Below, piece by piece: positions 7,358-49,952 of a DNA stretch of 58,802 nucleotides. Positions within the stretch are counted from its first letter, which is position 1. Each line of letters starts with the position of its first letter. The notes beneath the pieces were generated by a model. That model had not been told where the DNA came from. It saw only the letters and a list, made by a program, of their open reading frames with translations, and made no database searches. Origin of the DNA: a virus; IMG/VR virus record IMGVR_UViG_3300036760_000108, positions 1 through 58,802 of that record; one strand, written 5' to 3'. The translations under genes and the position numbers were made by a program.

Positions 7358-7489
7358 TTACCGCCCGCATGTGGCATCATTGTATTGTGATAACCACTCT
7401 CCACAATCTAAGCAAACGTAATGAATCTCTCCGGCCTTTTCCTCTCTAAACTCTAGCCTATGTTCCGTCAACGTCCTTTGACAAATCAT
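7358..7489 (-). CDS. Small Cys-containing protein, 43 aa
   Basis: Start at ATG 7489, preceded by AGAGGTG and overlapping the amidotransferase stop in ATGA. The protein contains a CLDCGEW zinc-knuckle half-site. It is likely co-translated with the amidotransferase; function unknown. Confidence 0.55.
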   Translation of the reverse strand: MICQRTLTEHRLEFREEKAGEIHYVCLDCGEWLSQYNDATCGR

Positions 7490-8433
7490 CGGTGCACCTC
7501 TAGAGCCGCTGGCGGCATGTCTTTTGTCTCGGCCTCTTTTAGCCACATCAAACAGTCTAAACAATAGCCCTCTGATAATTCCCCTAGTCCCCCGCACATG
7601 TCGCAATAGTCCGTTGTGGCGTGCGCCTTGTCTCTGTCATCCTTCCATGTGCTAAAGTCTTCCTTGTGCTCATCCTCATCTACTAGATTGCCGTGCGCTT
7701 GTGGCATCCTCGGCGCGTCTAGCTTATATCCACCACCATATGAGGCATAATCATAATCGGCAAGTGAAGAGCCTAGACCGCTAGAGGCATAGCCCGCCGT
7801 AAAGCTGTATGACTTATTCCGTGGTACGCGCTCATTCGTTAAGCGTGTAGCATCATGGAAAGTATAAATCATACCCTCGGCTAATTGCCGTACATGCGTA
7901 CATCCGATAGCCTTTAGCTGTTCCGCTTCACTCGCTAAGTATGTGCCGCCGTTATGACGGCCTCTGTATAGAGGATTGCCGCAACGGTACGCTTTAAGCT
8001 TGCCGCCTTCAATCCACACAAGAGCTATACAGCCCTCATACTTGCTAAAGTCTTTAGCCTTGATCCCATGTATCAAGCTCTGAGAGTCTACGGCATAGGT
8101 GCCGAAATCCTCATCATTGATAATGATACCGTTATGCGCGAACGCGATACCATCATCTAAGAAAGGATGAGCATTAGCGCTAGTAACGTCACCTTGTGTA
8201 GCGGCTCTAGTGTGACCGATAAACATACCAGATATTGCCGCTTCAGTTACTTCCTTGCGTAGTGTGGTATTCAATGCCACACAAGGCCTATCAGCTACTT
8301 TAGCTATGCGTACCTCATTGTTAGAGACGTAAGCAAGGCCTACGCTATCCGTGCCTCTATCCTCATTCATAGACCCTAGCGCAATCATCCGGTTACTGCT
8401 AAGCTTGCCTATCCCTGCAAATAATCCACACAT
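7486..8433 (-). CDS. Class II glutamine amidotransferase
   Basis: 315 aa from ATG 8433 (RBS GGGGGTGAT). After Met removal the N-terminal Cys of MCGLFAGIGK is the Ntn-hydrolase nucleophile. GHTRAATQG and FAHNGIIIN match the glutamine-binding and oxyanion segments of GlmS/PurF-type glutaminase domains. No synthetase domain (SIS or PRTase) follows; instead the C-terminal 90 residues are low in structure and end with a zinc-knuckle-like CDMCGG...CLDC. It would release ammonia from glutamine for a partner enzyme, and the amidoligase encoded one base upstream is the obvious candidate. Confidence 0.9.
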   Translation of the reverse strand: MCGLFAGIGKLSSNRMIALGSMNEDRGTDSVGLAYVSNNEVRIAKVADRPCVALNTTLRKEVTEAAISGMFIGHTRAATQGDVTSANAHPFLDDGIAFAHNGIIINDEDFGTYAVDSQSLIHGIKAKDFSKYEGCIALVWIEGGKLKAYRCGNPLYRGRHNGGTYLASEAEQLKAIGCTHVRQLAEGMIYTFHDATRLTNERVPRNKSYSFTAGYASSGLGSSLADYDYASYGGGYKLDAPRMPQAHGNLVDEDEHKEDFSTWKDDRDKAHATTDYCDMCGGLGELSEGYCLDCLMWLKEAETKDMPPAALEVHR

Positions 8434-8434
8434 G

Positions 8435-10060
8435 TTAACGATCACCCCCATTAGTATTATGAAACGCTTCACGGTCTAGGCTCATGGTACGCTCATCATC
8501 TGTCATCGGCAATTGTGCTATGCGCTCTTGCGCGTTACGCTCTGCTCTTTGTGCCGCCATTCCGTCATCTGGCCTTTGCCCGCTTGTATCTACAGGATAC
8601 CCGCCGATTGTTTCCGCAATTGACCACCCATAAAATTCAGGCGTGCCCGTCATCATCTGATAGGCCGTAACTTGGAGAGTAGCATTATCAATTCTAATGT
8701 TTTGTACGTCTCTCATCTCGTCATAGTGCGTAACCGTTAAAGTTTGCCCGCGCAATGTTTCAACGGCGGCCCGCATTGATTCGGCGGTAAGCACTCCGGC
8801 CCTCGGCTCTATGTTATTTGTCCTATGTATCACCACGTTAGACGGTGAGGCCGTGACAGCCTCGGCGGGCTCTTCCTCATCTGATACAGCCCATGGCCCT
8901 CTATGGTTACGCTCACAGTCTCGGCACACTCTCCCCCCGCAATACTCCCCCTCATCGTGCCTATTGTCTCGGCATGTGTAACAGTCCGGCGCATCTCCAC
9001 AATTGCCGCCCTCGTGACAATATTCACACTCGTTAGGCTCACAGTCACCGTCATCATGCGTTTGTGAATTACAACGGCCTTCCTCACCACATCCACAAGG
9101 GCACGAGTCATCATTGCTATCATCATCCTCTGAGCGGTTCGGCTCTGTAGCTTGATTATCGGAATAGAATTTCTTTAGCCGTCCTTTCAATTCACATTCC
9201 GCATTGTGCAAGGCAATCAATGGCCTATCAAACGCGCTCCATTCAATGCCTAAGCTTTTCAATTGACTATAGACCCATGCGGGTATAGGTTCATGCCGTT
9301 TATCTAAAGGCTTTACGTCTTCAATGATAGCTTTCAGCACATCAGAGAGCATATCAATAGAGGCCTTGCGGCTTTCAAACGGTCTATGCGCTATCTTCCA
9401 TCCTTCACGGCCTAAAAGCATACAGAAGGTAGACCATGCTAATACATATTTCCATCGATGAGTATTCCCTAGCAAGCGTACCTCTACCGTGCGTATGCCA
9501 CTAGGCCGGAATATCTCTACAGTGTTTAGCCAATGATACCGCCGTGAGTTATTGTACTTTGTAGACTCAAAACGTGTGCCCGCTTTCGTCTCTTCAATCT
9601 TTCGACAATAGCTATTAGATTTCCTTGCATCTGGTACGGCCTGAAATGCAAGGTCTTCTATATCCTTAGCTAGTGACTCGGTAGCAATGGCCCATTGCCG
9701 CAAGCGTGCCATTGACGCGCCTTGTATTCCCATATGCACATGATACCCGCATGACTTATCAGTATTAAGGCTAGGCGCGTGTACCAAATCTTTCAAGAGG
9801 CCTAGTACAAACTTAGGCGAACGTGTGACGGCGGGCAATACAACATATTCCGTACCGTCACCGTTTACGCTTCCATCACTGATTACATTTACTCCGGCTG
9901 GTACTCGTGCCGCACTATGGTTAGCCTCTAATTCCCAACCTAGCGAAAATTTAAACTTAGGGACGGGCGGCTCATAGGTGTACGTGTTGCGTGTGGAGCT
10001 ATACCGCACAATATTAGCCGGATGGTTCGGGCTAAGTATGCTTTCATTATTGGAAGGCAT
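8435..10060 (-). CDS. Amidoligase (COOH-NH2 ligase family) with Cys-rich domain
   Basis: 541 aa. The N-terminal 270 residues carry the putative amidoligase pattern of the glutamine-synthetase/gamma-glutamylcysteine-ligase fold: SLGWELEAN, ISDGSVNGDGTEYV, CGYHVHMG and VEIFRPSGIRTVEVRLL. After a helical region, residues about 310-395 form a dense Cys/His cluster (CPCGCGEEGRCN, CEYCHEGGNC, CYTC, CRDCERN) expected to bind several zinc ions. Family knowledge predicts ATP-dependent amide-bond formation between a carboxylate and an amine or ammonia. Pairing with a class II amidotransferase suggests amidation using glutamine. Possible targets are a peptide, the cell surface or modified nucleobases; the sequence does not decide. 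Confidence 0.85.
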   Translation of the reverse strand: MPSNNESILSPNHPANIVRYSSTRNTYTYEPPVPKFKFSLGWELEANHSAARVPAGVNVISDGSVNGDGTEYVVLPAVTRSPKFVLGLLKDLVHAPSLNTDKSCGYHVHMGIQGASMARLRQWAIATESLAKDIEDLAFQAVPDARKSNSYCRKIEETKAGTRFESTKYNNSRRYHWLNTVEIFRPSGIRTVEVRLLGNTHRWKYVLAWSTFCMLLGREGWKIAHRPFESRKASIDMLSDVLKAIIEDVKPLDKRHEPIPAWVYSQLKSLGIEWSAFDRPLIALHNAECELKGRLKKFYSDNQATEPNRSEDDDSNDDSCPCGCGEEGRCNSQTHDDGDCEPNECEYCHEGGNCGDAPDCYTCRDNRHDEGEYCGGRVCRDCERNHRGPWAVSDEEEPAEAVTASPSNVVIHRTNNIEPRAGVLTAESMRAAVETLRGQTLTVTHYDEMRDVQNIRIDNATLQVTAYQMMTGTPEFYGWSIAETIGGYPVDTSGQRPDDGMAAQRAERNAQERIAQLPMTDDERTMSLDREAFHNTNGGDR

Positions 10061-18799: not shown

Positions 18800-19804
18800 A
18801 TGGCACAGGGTGAGTCAATTGTTAGTCCGGCCTCGATCAATGCGAGAGCTGAGGCCTTAGAGAAAGCTGAGAAAGAAGCAGCGGCAAAAGGATCAGAAGC
18901 GAACGCCGGTGATGAAGCTGCTAAAGTTGCAGCGGAAAAAGCAGCTGCCGATAAAGCAGCGGCTGATAAAGTTGAAGCAGATAAGAAAGCTGCGGAAGCT
19001 AAAACCAGTGAAGGCAAGACCGGAACGGAAGATGTGAATAAACCTCCGGTAAAGAAAGCGCCGAATGATCCTGATGAGTTGCGAAAGTGGAATACGCGTG
19101 TCAGTCAGGAAAACAAAAAGCTTCGTGATGAGATGTCTGCGCTAAAAGAAGCGCAGGAGAAAACCTTTAAGCTGTTGTCTAAGATTTCTAAGACACCAGT
19201 CGATTACAAAGAATTAGCCAAAGATCCTGAGAAGTTGCAGAAGTTTATTGAAGAAGAGCGTGAGAATGCCACTTCTGAATTGAGAGTTCAACTTGATCAA
19301 GCATCGGCTGATGCGAAAGCAAAAGACACGATGGTTGAACGAATGAAACGTGAGCATGACACTGAGAACTACCCTGAGTGGAAAAGATTGTATCCCAGTA
19401 TTGTGAAAATTGCGATGGGACCCACTGGGCAGGGTGATCCTCGTGTTGACTTTACGAAGCCGTCTGGTGAAGTATTGGATGCATTGTATGAGTTGGCTCT
19501 TTCTGAGAATCCAGCTCCTGCAGCGCCAGTGGTTCCTGTAGTTCCGGTTGAGAAAGTTTATAAAGAATCAGAAATGAAAGTTCTGTTAGCAGAAATGTTA
19601 GCGAAAGAGAAAGATGCGATTGCTAAGTCTGCAAAAGAAGAAGCAATAAAAGAAGCACAGCAAGCATTGTCAGAAGAAGCAAAAGGTGGAACAGTTGCTA
19701 GTGCCGGAAAAGGTGCAGGTAGAGTTCCTTCTGATCATCTTGCTGCTTTCAAGAAGATGTCACTCAATGAACAACGTGAGTGGCTTATTTCACAGCAACA
19801 GTAA
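18800..19804 (+). CDS. Scaffolding protein, putative
   Basis: 334 aa, rich in Ala/Glu/Lys with long coiled stretches (about residues 10-75 and 105-190), no Cys, and a short helical C-terminus (DHLAAFKKMSLNEQREWLIS). Location between portal and major capsid plus this composition are the usual signs of a scaffold, which guides shell assembly and then leaves the prohead. Confidence 0.75.
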   Translation: MAQGESIVSPASINARAEALEKAEKEAAAKGSEANAGDEAAKVAAEKAAADKAAADKVEADKKAAEAKTSEGKTGTEDVNKPPVKKAPNDPDELRKWNTRVSQENKKLRDEMSALKEAQEKTFKLLSKISKTPVDYKELAKDPEKLQKFIEEERENATSELRVQLDQASADAKAKDTMVERMKREHDTENYPEWKRLYPSIVKIAMGPTGQGDPRVDFTKPSGEVLDALYELALSENPAPAAPVVPVVPVEKVYKESEMKVLLAEMLAKEKDAIAKSAKEEAIKEAQQALSEEAKGGTVASAGKGAGRVPSDHLAAFKKMSLNEQREWLISQQQ

Positions 19805-19822: not shown

Positions 19823-19850
19823 CCAGGGGTTAAAATCCCTGGCACAATTT
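19823..19850 (+). terminator. Hairpin after the scaffold gene
   Basis: CCAGGG/CCCTGG stem with an 8-nt loop followed by CACAATTTT. Similar in form to the hairpin after the capsid gene (21296-21323), which is followed by CACAATTT. It may be a terminator or an RNA-processing/stability element. Its loop contains TTAA, so it could be mistaken for a Leu anticodon arm. Confidence 0.5.
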
Positions 19851-19924
19851 TAGCAACTAGGTCGCGGGTTCGAATCCCGCCTGACTCCTTGAGTCAGTAG
19901 CTCAGTGGGCAGAGCAGTCGCTTT
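19850..19924 (+). tRNA. tRNA-like locus with halves in reverse order
   Basis: The 3' half comes first: GCAAC (19853-19857), variable bases, T-arm GCGGG-TTCGAAT-CCCGC (19864-19880), acceptor strand CTGACTC (19881-19887). Three bases (CTT) later comes the 5' half: GAGTCAG (19891-19897), TA, D-arm GCTC-AGTGGGCA-GAGC (19900-19915), then GTCGC (19917-19921) and TTT. The acceptor strands pair perfectly over 7 bp, and GTCGC pairs with GCAAC with one mismatch. Neither half has a partner in normal order. Both resemble elongator tRNAs of the Lys/Arg kind. It could be a circularly permuted tRNA, a tRNA mimic or a scrambled remnant. Confidence 0.5.
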
Positions 19925-20000
19925 CGCGGGTGGAGGGTAGAGTTATCCTATCGGCCTCATACGCCGATTAACCAAGTGCGACTCTTGGACTCCGCAACCA
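19925..20000 (+). tRNA. Initiator-like tRNA-Met (CAT)
   Basis: Starts CGCGGG and ends GCAACCA, as bacterial initiator tRNAs do, including the unpaired C1/A72. Anticodon arm TCGGC-CTCATAC-GCCGA is perfect with anticodon CAT. D-stem AGGG/TCCT; T-arm CCAAG-TGCGACT-CTTGG with an unusual loop. The acceptor has a T7/C66-type mismatch and an extra A next to the T-stem. CCA is encoded. It abuts the reversed tRNA-like locus directly. Confidence 0.6.
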
Positions 20001-20011
20001 TTTGTCTTAGT

Positions 20012-20088
20012 GGGCTTATAGCTCAGCTAGGGAGAGCAGCACATTTGCAATGTGAAGGTCATAGGTTCAATTCCTATTAGGTCCACCA
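20012..20088 (+). tRNA. tRNA-Ala (TGC)
   Basis: Acceptor GGGCTTA/TAGGTCC, D-stem GCTC/GAGC, anticodon loop TTTGCAA with TGC, T-arm ATAGG-TTCAATT-CCTAT, discriminator A and encoded CCA. All arms pair, apart from one G/A mismatch at the base of the anticodon stem. Confidence 0.85.
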
Positions 20089-20330
20089 AGACAAACTAAT
20101 TTTAAGTTACCAAACAGACCCTTATATTAGGATAACCTGTTAGGTAACTCAGCAAGGCCCCTCGGTGTACGAGATAAGGCATGTGTCCATTAGTAACGGA
20201 CAAGCGTGAAGTACGGACGCCCCAGTGAAAATGAATGCGGTAACGGCTAAACGGTTACTAACCTTGGAACTTGTACCAACGTGCTTGAGATATTGCGCTC
20301 ACACGTATTAAACTCAAAAAGGTAAACAAA
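20089..20330 (+). promoter_or_regulatory. Structured leader of the capsid gene
   Basis: 242 nt without a gene. A 12-bp imperfect inverted repeat (AGTTACC-a-AACAG, 20105-20117, with CTGTT-a-GGTAACT, 20137-20149) is followed by short hairpins TGTCC/GGACA, GCGT/ACGC and GTAAC/GTTAC. It precedes the most highly expressed virion gene, so it may control capsid mRNA stability or translation. No known RNA family was recognised. Confidence 0.4.
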
Positions 20331-21275
20331 ATGGCTCTTAATGTTAATATTACCTCTACGGGTGGGCTTAATGACGCTTCTGCGATTTTCTATGATCGCA
20401 AACTCTTGACCCGCCTTATGTTCTCTTTGTTTTTCCAAGAGAATGCTGAAAAGCGCACACTGCCGAAAGCCAGTGGTACGCAGATTCAGTTCCTGCGTCC
20501 TGTGAATCAGGCTGCAGTTACTTCACCCCTCGGTGAAGGCGCAAACCCCAATGGTCAGGTCTGGCAGTCCACGAAGATTCTGGCTACGCCTCTGCAATAT
20601 GGCGCGTTCGTTTCGTATTCTGATCGCCTCATGTTGGAAGCGTATGACAACATCACGGAAGCTATCCATGACGTTCTTGGGTATCAGGCCGGATTGTCGC
20701 TGGATACTATTTGCCGAAATGCTCTTTCTGGCAACATGACCATCCAGTATACCGGATCAGCTGTCTCTGAAATCACGACTTCTGTGGTTGCAGCCGGCGT
20801 TGACTTCCGACGTGCTTCAGCGCATCTCCGGGCTCTCTCGGTTATGCCGTTTGAAGATGGGACGTATCACGGAATTGTGCATCCTAACACCTCATTCGAT
20901 CTGCAAAGCGACAGCGCAGTGAGTGGTTGGATCGAGCTGAATAAGTACATCAGCATCGACAAAGTGCATGAAAAAGCTCTCGCTGGCGAACTTGGGAAGT
21001 TGTACAACATTCGTTTCCAAGAATCGCAGAACGTCCTCACTGGGACCGGGGCGGCTTCGGCTGTCACGTATCACAGCTGGGTGTTTGGAAAGGAATCCTT
21101 TGGTGCGGTCGATGTGGCCAATCAAGGAATCCAGAAGATCGTGCATCAGCCGGGTGATTCAGGCGTTGCTGATCCGTTGAACCTCAACGGCAGCATTGGC
21201 TGGAAAGCTTATGCGGTGTTCCCTGTTCTGGACTCGAATCGTGCTATTGAAGTTATTGGTACGAGCGCGGCCTAA
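20331..21275 (+). CDS. Major capsid protein, N4 gp56 family
   Basis: 314 aa. The N-terminal FYDRKLLTRLMFSLFFQENAEK, then LPKASGTQIQFLRPV, PLGEG...VWQSTKILATPLQYGAFVSYSD and a late HSWVFGKESFGAVDV are characteristic of the N4 gp56-type HK97-fold capsid proteins. Located after the scaffold and tRNA genes with its own long leader. It forms the icosahedral shell. Confidence 0.9.
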   Translation: MALNVNITSTGGLNDASAIFYDRKLLTRLMFSLFFQENAEKRTLPKASGTQIQFLRPVNQAAVTSPLGEGANPNGQVWQSTKILATPLQYGAFVSYSDRLMLEAYDNITEAIHDVLGYQAGLSLDTICRNALSGNMTIQYTGSAVSEITTSVVAAGVDFRRASAHLRALSVMPFEDGTYHGIVHPNTSFDLQSDSAVSGWIELNKYISIDKVHEKALAGELGKLYNIRFQESQNVLTGTGAASAVTYHSWVFGKESFGAVDVANQGIQKIVHQPGDSGVADPLNLNGSIGWKAYAVFPVLDSNRAIEVIGTSAA

Positions 21276-48289: not shown

Positions 48290-48547
48290 TTATTCACCCT
48301 CCGGTGGCACATAACTCCCACCTGTCGTAAAGGTACCAGGTTCACTAGGGAACCATTGCATGCCATCAGCAGTCCAACCTTCCACACTCGTTCCAACCGT
48401 CGTTATAACGAATGCCCGTCCACGCGCCAATCGAAGCATCTGCAAAGCCATGGCATCTCGCGCTGATACCAATCTATTATATAGCATGTCCGATAGGTCT
48501 TTGTCAAGGCTCAATTTAACCGCATCTACAAATTGAGGGGTTTCCAT
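48290..48547 (-). CDS. Hypothetical protein, 85 aa
   Basis: Helical N-terminus (DAVKLSLDKDLSDMLYNRLV) then FVITTVGTSVEGWTADGMQW. The stop overlaps the protease ribosome-binding region, so the two are likely coupled. No family recognised. Confidence 0.55.
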   Translation of the reverse strand: METPQFVDAVKLSLDKDLSDMLYNRLVSARDAMALQMLRLARGRAFVITTVGTSVEGWTADGMQWFPSEPGTFTTGGSYVPPEGE

Positions 48548-49017
48548 TATTTTGCCTCCCTGAACAACTTCGCTATAGCCTTAGCTTGTTTAAACAAAAG
48601 CCCATCTTCGGGAGTCGTTTGAAAGAAATGACCGATTCCTGGTTTAACTGCGATAGCAGCAGATTCATCATCGTCTATGATGACATATTTCGTAATCCCT
48701 GGATTATCTTCAAGCCACAAATTAATTTCATGTCCTCGATCTCCACTAAAAACAGCAGGGGTTTTACCAATAATCCTAGAAGCTGTCACACCATAGCTAT
48801 TTAGGATATTTCCCAATTCCACGTTTGTATGCAGTTTACGCCAAGTTGAAGAAATTACAATTTTAACAGAAGAATCCAGGTCAAGTATATATTGCAGATT
48901 GGAACAGGACACAGGATTAAGCGTATCGCTCACCTTGCTGTTCTTTCGACGAACCTCCATACGGAAACTAGCTTCCGAATTTAGGACACCATCAAAGTCT
49001 AGAAAAATTACTTTCAT
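48547..49017 (-). CDS. HAD phosphatase of the RNA-repair (Swiss-army-knife) type
   Basis: 156 aa. DFDGVLN (motif I nucleophile and acid/base Asp), VISSTWRK (motif II), and YVIIDDDESAA (motif IV) are complete. This short HAD class (SAK-HAD) is known beside or fused to RNA repair enzymes, where it removes phosphates from RNA or nucleotide ends. It overlaps the RNA ligase gene by 4 nt, supporting joint end-healing and sealing. Confidence 0.8.
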   Translation of the reverse strand: MKVIFLDFDGVLNSEASFRMEVRRKNSKVSDTLNPVSCSNLQYILDLDSSVKIVISSTWRKLHTNVELGNILNSYGVTASRIIGKTPAVFSGDRGHEINLWLEDNPGITKYVIIDDDESAAIAVKPGIGHFFQTTPEDGLLFKQAKAIAKLFREAK

Positions 49018-49952
49018 AAAATCTCCTGAGAGAATTGAGTAACGGTTTCTTTTTCAAATTGCTTCTCAAGCAGCATCTTCTTATAGTACTCTGGGAAACC
49101 ACCTGTGATAATACGTGCAATCTTAGGCCATGCTTGTTTGAAAAGCTCTTCTTTGATCTCCGCTTCACATTCCTTTAACACATCTACGTTGATCTCTTTA
49201 AGGAGTTTACCAATGTCAGTTGGAGAATCTTCGAGCTGTCCGGCTTCTTTAAGATGCTGAATGCTCTTATTCCATCGAGCTGGGGTCTTGTAGCTCAATG
49301 CCACTTTCTCAACAATCTCATTATGCGTTGGGTTGCTGGATTTCCAGTTCCCACCATGCACTTCTTTGAAGACCTCTGAGACATATTTACCAAATAGGAC
49401 CTTTTTGTCGATACCAAAAAGTCCATAGCCAACGGGTTTCACCACGACACCTTCAATTTTCTGGCCACCTAAGAAGCTCACCGTTTCTAAGAAAGCTTTG
49501 AGCTGTTCAGCGGATTCTACCATTCCTGTAAAAAGAAGAGGTACAACTTCTAAATCCAGTCGTTCTGCTTCTTTCACAACCTCTTCATAATGCAGGTAGC
49601 ACTCTTCTCCGTTATTCACGTCAAAAATCACGACATTGTGACGCGGTACACGGTCATAAGCCAACGTGTTGTGTTTAGGCCGGCACAGAACCTCTCCACG
49701 ATATGTGTAGCCGGGAGTCAATTGGTCTTTCAACGAATTGACATAGGTCACAGCATCTTTGAACAGCTTATCCGCCGTTTCCATGTACACAATAGCACCT
49801 TTTGACTTGGTGATGACTGTTCCATCTTCATCCAAACCAAATGAGAACTGTGAACCATCAACTTTCTCCTGCACATAGACTGGACCCACTAAAAGGCCAG
49901 CTACACATCTATGACCAAATGAATAGATGTGGGGATATCCATGAAGTTTCAT
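49014..49952 (-). CDS. RNA ligase, Rnl2-like
   Basis: 312 aa. Motif I EKVDGSQF (Lys is the AMP-accepting residue, about residue 30), motif III-like YRGEVL, motif IV KIEGVVVKP and motif V VLFGKYVS are in order. The C-terminal 90 residues are helical. Such ligases seal nicks in RNA, for example tRNAs cut by host defence nucleases. Coupled to the HAD phosphatase. Confidence 0.9.
   Translation of the reverse strand: MKLHGYPHIYSFGHRCVAGLLVGPVYVQEKVDGSQFSFGLDEDGTVITKSKGAIVYMETADKLFKDAVTYVNSLKDQLTPGYTYRGEVLCRPKHNTLAYDRVPRHNVVIFDVNNGEECYLHYEEVVKEAERLDLEVVPLLFTGMVESAEQLKAFLETVSFLGGQKIEGVVVKPVGYGLFGIDKKVLFGKYVSEVFKEVHGGNWKSSNPTHNEIVEKVALSYKTPARWNKSIQHLKEAGQLEDSPTDIGKLLKEINVDVLKECEAEIKEELFKQAWPKIARIITGGFPEYYKKMLLEKQFEKETVTQFSQEIL

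Follow-up and report, generated by a model that had tools for sequence, protein, structure and literature searches.

The tRNA mimics of Y RNAs are known as partners of Ro60. The Y RNA YrlA is reported to have a basal stem to which the Ro60-like protein Rsr binds and a tRNA-like domain that interacts with PNPase and serves as a substrate for modification by DusA and TruB (PMC8394870). A second described system in which the halves of a tRNA are found in inverted order is that of the permuted tRNA genes, which have a bulge-helix-bulge as junction motif and in which, in archaea, the intervening sequence can be just 1 nt long (PMC3978253). The element described here is located in a 58,802-nt DNA of an uncultured phage (IMG/VR record IMGVR_UViG_3300036760_000108, positions 1 to 58,802), referred to in what follows as the window.

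Architecture and conservation of the tRNA-like domain

The circularly permuted tRNA-like domain, a YrlA-type tRNA mimic identified from its sequence, an Rfam comparison, alignment, covariation and minimum free energy (MFE) folding, encompasses nucleotides 19852-19922 of the plus strand, between a scaffold-like gene and the major capsid gene. From 5' to 3', and all on the plus strand, it consists of a basal-stem strand (AGCAACT, 19852..19858), a variable region, a T-arm (GCGGG-TTCGAAT-CCCGC, 19864..19880, with a stem of 5 bp and the loop TTCGAAT), the acceptor 3' strand (CTGACTC, 19881-19887), the trinucleotide CTT (19888-19890), the acceptor 5' strand (GAGTCAG, 19891-19897), the dinucleotide TA, a D-arm (GCTC-AGTGGGCA-GAGC, 19900..19915, with GG in the loop) and the second basal-stem strand (AGTCGCT, 19916..19922). 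The initial annotation had described a tRNA 3' half placed before a 5' half and separated from it by CTT, and all of these parts are present in the sequence. The acceptor strands (19881..19897) do pair in 7 of 7 positions, and the halves GCAAC and GTCGC of what had been called the anticodon stem pair with one mismatch; this basal, anticodon-equivalent stem is actually longer than had been stated, as it comprises seven positions (19852-19858 with 19916-19922) with the mismatch at the center. Neither half is partnered in the normal order, the best acceptor 7-mer at tRNA distance matching in only 4 of 7 positions upstream and 5 of 7 downstream.

The loop that closes the acceptor is CTT in the window and ATC or TTCG in relatives, and in one lineage (L002 and L003) the acceptor is capped by a C(UUCG)G tetraloop. 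UUCG between a C and a G is a classic stable tetraloop. MFE folds gave exactly the permuted cloverleaf in five relatives, and the fold of the window was nearly so. ARAGORN did not call the permuted element, and at gathering score the only Rfam matches at the locus were the two ordinary tRNAs downstream. A chance origin was considered and rejected, since a detector for a T-arm, a closed acceptor and a D-arm found no match in 7.06 Mb of dinucleotide-shuffled window sequence. There is no free CCA end and, as a consequence, the domain as encoded cannot be charged.

Twenty-two IMG/VR loci were gathered by means of their capsid protein. Eight independently assembled records (the window, L001-L006 and L013) have the element at this location, and among them there are six distinct element sequences. 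In the alignment of these six, 95% of the cells are paired according to the permuted cloverleaf, and compensatory double changes are found in 8 of the 21 pairs: three of the five in the T stem, three of the seven in the acceptor, and two in the basal stem. The acceptor complementarity, the loss of which in relatives had been named as an argument against the element, is kept by means of compensatory changes. When the partners were shifted by 1-3 columns, 0-1 pairs showed double changes, and because the sequences are few and related this slid control counts more than the shuffle. The bases of the T-loop and D-loop that, from general knowledge, we take to make the tertiary contacts of tRNA are kept in all copies.

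The initial annotation had also considered a recombination scar and an assembly error. The capsid leader is indeed a modular region in which elements are gained and lost among relatives, as such an origin would have it. However, a scar is refuted by the conservation and the compensatory changes in independent assemblies, and an error is excluded by the presence of the element in eight independently assembled records; we regard either one as next to impossible. No mimic was seen in L007-L012 and L014-L022, and those of the first group lack it with capsid proteins that are 86-93% identical. The element is therefore absent from many close relatives and must be dispensable. Upstream of the capsid gene of L017 a different insert is found between two copies of CCAGCACAATTTC, at the spot that the mimic occupies in the window, which suggests a modular insertion site. 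A clade-specific DNA pattern gave 100 matches in IMG/VR, with the element in already known contigs only. A search for capsid relatives in bacterial genomes found none, and for this reason no host is assigned. The only similar DNA in cultured phages was the tRNA-Thr of Serratia and Erwinia phages, which matched the tRNA-Ala of the window.

On the basis of these sequence comparisons, the domain very probably has the architecture of a closed tRNA mimic, in which a T-arm, an acceptor closed by a short loop and a D-arm would be hung on the transcript by the anticodon-equivalent stem. The domain is most probably a real imitation of a tRNA and not a working tRNA. Its structure is well supported; its function we infer.

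Relation to YrlA and to modules accompanied by Ro60 genes

When cmscan was run with an E-value threshold, the region 19858-19917 aligned to positions 25-83 of the 114 positions of YrlA (RF02553). The score of 41.2 bits (E 9.4e-8) does not reach the cut-off of 69, but this cut-off alone is a weak test, as the phage arrays described below are also without a YrlA match above it. The relatives behaved likewise. The permuted T-arm, acceptor and D-arm that characterize the tRNA-like module of YrlA are all found in the window element. The module itself is thus of a known kind, and the suggestion in the initial annotation of a tRNA mimic with an acceptor closed by a triloop is supported, with the YrlA module as precedent.

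A comparison group was assembled from phage contigs and bacterial genomes using a general pattern for permuted closed modules. Among the matches listed, these modules are often found in arrays and are often capped by TTCG, GAAA or GCAA. A TROVE (Ro60/Rsr) protein is encoded in 18 of the 22 phage contigs with permuted modules among the matches listed, and the flanks of most of the listed elements pair, with a mean z of -2.0 in the motif-bearing ones. The upstream motif in question, TAC[TA].C, was present in 40 of 62 comparison elements among the matches listed and, having been derived from the same arrays, it is an empirical signature and not a proven Ro60 site. Permuted modules together with a TROVE/Ro60 gene were seen in L149, L161, L180, L182, L185, L204, L207, L209, L227, L230 and others; in several of the TROVE-bearing contigs the modules form arrays, the acceptor ends are often capped by GNRA or UUCG, and ARAGORN tRNA calls overlap some of them. 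Permuted closed modules without the Y-RNA upstream motif were seen in L140, L232, L248 and L249; the last three, contigs that may be fragments, gave no TROVE match.

These data bear on the possibility that the window element is a standalone Y RNA of the YrlA kind, that is, an independent small RNA tethering a Ro60-type protein to PNPase. The alignment to YrlA positions 25-83 is in agreement with this possibility, as is the fact that the family model R1 also picks up Y-RNA-like modules in other places, with scores of about 50 bits. On the other hand, the score is 41 bits against an Rfam cut-off of 69, and no TROVE gene was found in the clade contigs G000 (58.8 kb), G004 (55.6 kb) and G011 (58.1 kb), which are possibly incomplete, as compared to the 18 of 22 module-bearing contigs among the matches listed. 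The TAC[TA].C motif is absent upstream of the element in all members of the window clade, and no flank duplex corresponding to the Ro-binding basal stem was found in the clade, with z values of -0.9 to +1.7 compared to the mean of -2.0 in signature-bearing elements. Furthermore, in most copies just 3 nt follow on the 3' side, which leaves no room for a Ro stem. A standalone Y RNA is in our estimate decidedly unlikely; with no TROVE gene found in the three contigs and with the motif and the pairing flanks absent, the window element can be considered as the tRNA-mimicking part of a Y RNA, separated from the remaining parts.

Genomic context and proposed role

The scaffold-like gene upstream of the domain (18800..19804, plus strand) codes for 334 amino acids that had no Pfam match, and is named by its position alone, between the portal and capsid genes. 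It is followed on the same strand by a GC-rich hairpin at 19823..19842, CCAGGGGT-TAAA-ATCCCTGG, and then CACAATTTTA. The hairpin plus (G)CACAATTT is also found 5' of the element in relatives, and a terminator scan found no terminator on the plus strand at this hairpin. Downstream of the domain there is an initiator-like tRNA-Met(CAU) with an ACCA end (19925..20000, plus strand; Rfam tRNA match of 34 bits at 19926-19996), in which C1 and A72 (19925/19996) are mismatched. A C1.A72 mismatch is a hallmark of initiator tRNAs, and it is found in the tRNA-Met of the window and of most relatives. A tRNA was called in 21 of the 22 loci, once with the anticodon CCT (L018), and in most of L001-L020 an initiator-like tRNA-Met with the C1.A72 (or A.A) mismatch precedes the capsid gene. 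In the window and in L002-L005 the core stem of the mimic and C1 of the tRNA are separated by TTT only (3 nt). L006 has the same tRNA start, but an HNH insertion shortly after the element interrupts the tRNA. This 3-nt spacing is not universal, as roughly 60 and 100 nt lie between mimic and tRNA in L001 and L013, respectively. HNH or endonuclease VII-like genes were seen inserted in the tRNA or leader region, in the gap between scaffold and capsid genes, of L006, L008, L011, L012 and L021.

The tRNA-Met is followed on the plus strand by a tRNA-Ala(UGC) (20012..20088), a conserved, structured and untranslated leader (20089..20330) and the gene for the major capsid protein (20331..21275), a 314-amino acids protein with 30-33% identity over 92-95% coverage to major capsid and head proteins. 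The leader matched no Rfam family at gathering score, and repeated CCCC...GGAYAAG pieces and covarying helices were seen in it in 11 aligned relatives. Judging by sequence it could be an undescribed structured RNA. Matches to the leader pattern TTANTAACGGACAAGCG beyond the known relatives resembled unrelated sequence.

The explanation that we favor, and to which we give about an even chance, is that the domain is a cis-acting, non-chargeable YrlA-type tRNA mimic that forms the 3' end of the upstream mRNA after tRNA maturation by RNase P. The domain would fold during transcription, without splicing or ligation, and would act within the late transcript, in the stretch that separates the scaffold gene from the capsid gene. 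Cleavage by RNase P at C1 of the initiator-like tRNA, 3 nt downstream, would leave the closed L-shaped domain with a short U-tail at the 3' terminus of the scaffold message; the capsid mRNA would start past the tRNAs and would have a separate 5' end with a structured leader of its own. The domain would then shield the scaffold mRNA or tune its decay, perhaps through contacts with PNPase or with proteins that bind tRNA, in the manner of the YrlA effector domain. Binding of PNPase is extrapolated from YrlA, and it may require parts that the window element lacks. The role at the 3' terminus of the scaffold message is a tentative proposal that we would put at somewhat less than even. It would account for the location and for the tight spacing in most members, and it leaves the spaced members (L001 and L013) and the absence in close relatives unaccounted for. 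In a more far-reaching form, which we consider rather doubtful, the phage would have acquired a Y-RNA effector domain, lost the stem that binds Ro60, and incorporated the domain into a polycistronic mRNA as a Ro60-independent device; in combination with the initiator tRNA, this device would determine where the scaffold mRNA ends and how it decays, and hence the scaffold:capsid ratio.

A T-arm with an acceptor minihelix is the core substrate of RNase P, and the element includes a complete one, located between two genes and with ordinary tRNAs adjoining. These features would also be expected of a processing site (tRNA punctuation) at which RNase P or another tRNA enzyme cuts the closed acceptor loop and splits the scaffold and capsid messages. 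However, the acceptor loops are very short, one of them being the stable C(UUCG)G, and such a site would be redundant since the adjacent ordinary tRNAs already supply them. We consider this function unlikely.

The phage also encodes, on the minus strand, an RNA ligase (PF09414; 49014..49952) and, adjoining it, a protein with a HAD_SAK_2 RNA-repair phosphatase domain (48547..49017), which are likely an RNA (tRNA) repair pair (48547-49952). Elsewhere in the window (7486-10060) an amidoligase gene lies beside that of a class-II glutamine amidotransferase. The RNA repair genes would be in keeping with a decoy function, in which the element would titrate anticodon nucleases or enzymes that modify tRNAs in the infected cell; in one report, phage tRNAs are proposed to be shaped by tRNA-cleaving defences (PMC10264068). 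Such a decoy is nevertheless very unlikely, as the anticodon loop, the usual target, is missing from the element, and YrlA itself is not cut by anticodon nuclease in Salmonella, the authors suggesting it as a possible competitive inhibitor (PMC7790460).

A covarying copy of the mimic in the leader of a capsid gene, with no Ro60 gene found in the three clade contigs, suggests that the mimic domain is useful alone and is able to act in cis as part of an mRNA. Within the open papers covered by our literature search, we know of no description of a mimic without a Ro60 gene or a Ro stem that is fixed in a phage mRNA leader. The locus is a small testable system for closed tRNA-shaped domains in bacterial RNA, be it in the control of PNPase, the protection of mRNA ends or enzyme mimicry. 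Where tRNA halves occur in permuted order in the genomes of bacteria and phages, they are likely Y-RNA-type mimics that tRNA finders miss or mis-call; among the matches listed, ARAGORN called ordinary tRNAs overlapping several permuted modules.

Comparison with permuted tRNA genes and other tRNA-like RNAs

The window element shares with the permuted tRNA genes of unicellular algae and Thermofilum pendens the order of the halves, with the 3' half first, and acceptor strands joined by an intervening sequence. It could therefore be asked whether it is a circularly permuted tRNA gene in the strict sense, with its ends joined at the anticodon, perhaps by the phage RNA ligase, and with its acceptor loop removed by RNase P and a 3' nuclease to give a working tRNA. 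The perfect acceptor complementarity and the presence of the RNA ligase and the HAD phosphatase are compatible with this possibility, and so is the short CTT, given archaeal intervening sequences down to 1 nt (PMC3978253). However, joining of the ends would not give an intact anticodon stem-loop: each of the six distinct sequences has a non-pair (A.A or C.A) at one and the same position of the basal stem, and the stem is extended by a further pair within what would be the anticodon loop. No bulge-helix-bulge is visible when the flanks CACAATTTTA and TTTCGCGGG are read by eye, and the flank of the 3' half would place a U at position 37. In addition, the acceptor of L002 and L003 carries the UUCG cap, and bacteria are not expected to have a tRNA-splicing endonuclease. 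Rejoining in silico was uninformative, as ARAGORN accepts almost any join of the halves, with varying anticodons. A permuted tRNA gene processed through a circular RNA, as the initial annotation had contemplated, is thus not supported, in view of the constant mismatch, the stem reaching into the loop, the lack of a visible bulge-helix-bulge and the UUCG cap, and we hold a true permuted gene to be highly improbable. Ligation of the halves is not supported, since nothing in the sequence calls for joining in spite of the phage RNA ligase and phosphatase. The differences from the algal and Thermofilum pendens genes are therefore the absence of a visible bulge-helix-bulge or anticodon, the persistent mismatch, the tetraloop cap in one lineage, and the fact that the window clade is one of bacterial viruses.

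The tRNA-like domain of tmRNA is also a partial tRNA on a larger RNA, but its acceptor end stays chargeable, whereas that of the window element is closed. The tmRNA and permuted tmRNA models gave 14 and 13 bits, respectively, versus the 47 needed, and ARAGORN found no tmRNA.

The phage Ro60/Y-RNA-like arrays (for example L149, L182, L204 and L207) consist of the same permuted closed module, commonly with GNRA or UUCG caps; they differ in that the array contigs mostly have TROVE and the array elements mostly have TAC[TA].C and pairing flanks. With the tRNA-like module of YrlA the window element shares the order of T-arm, acceptor-like stem closed by a short loop, and D-arm, as well as the T-loop and D-loop of tRNA and the attachment through a stem that replaces the anticodon stem. 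It differs from YrlA in being without the Ro-binding basal stem, a TROVE gene in the three clade contigs and the upstream motif, in scoring under the Rfam cut-off, and in its location in the intergenic leader of an mRNA, beside an initiator-like tRNA.
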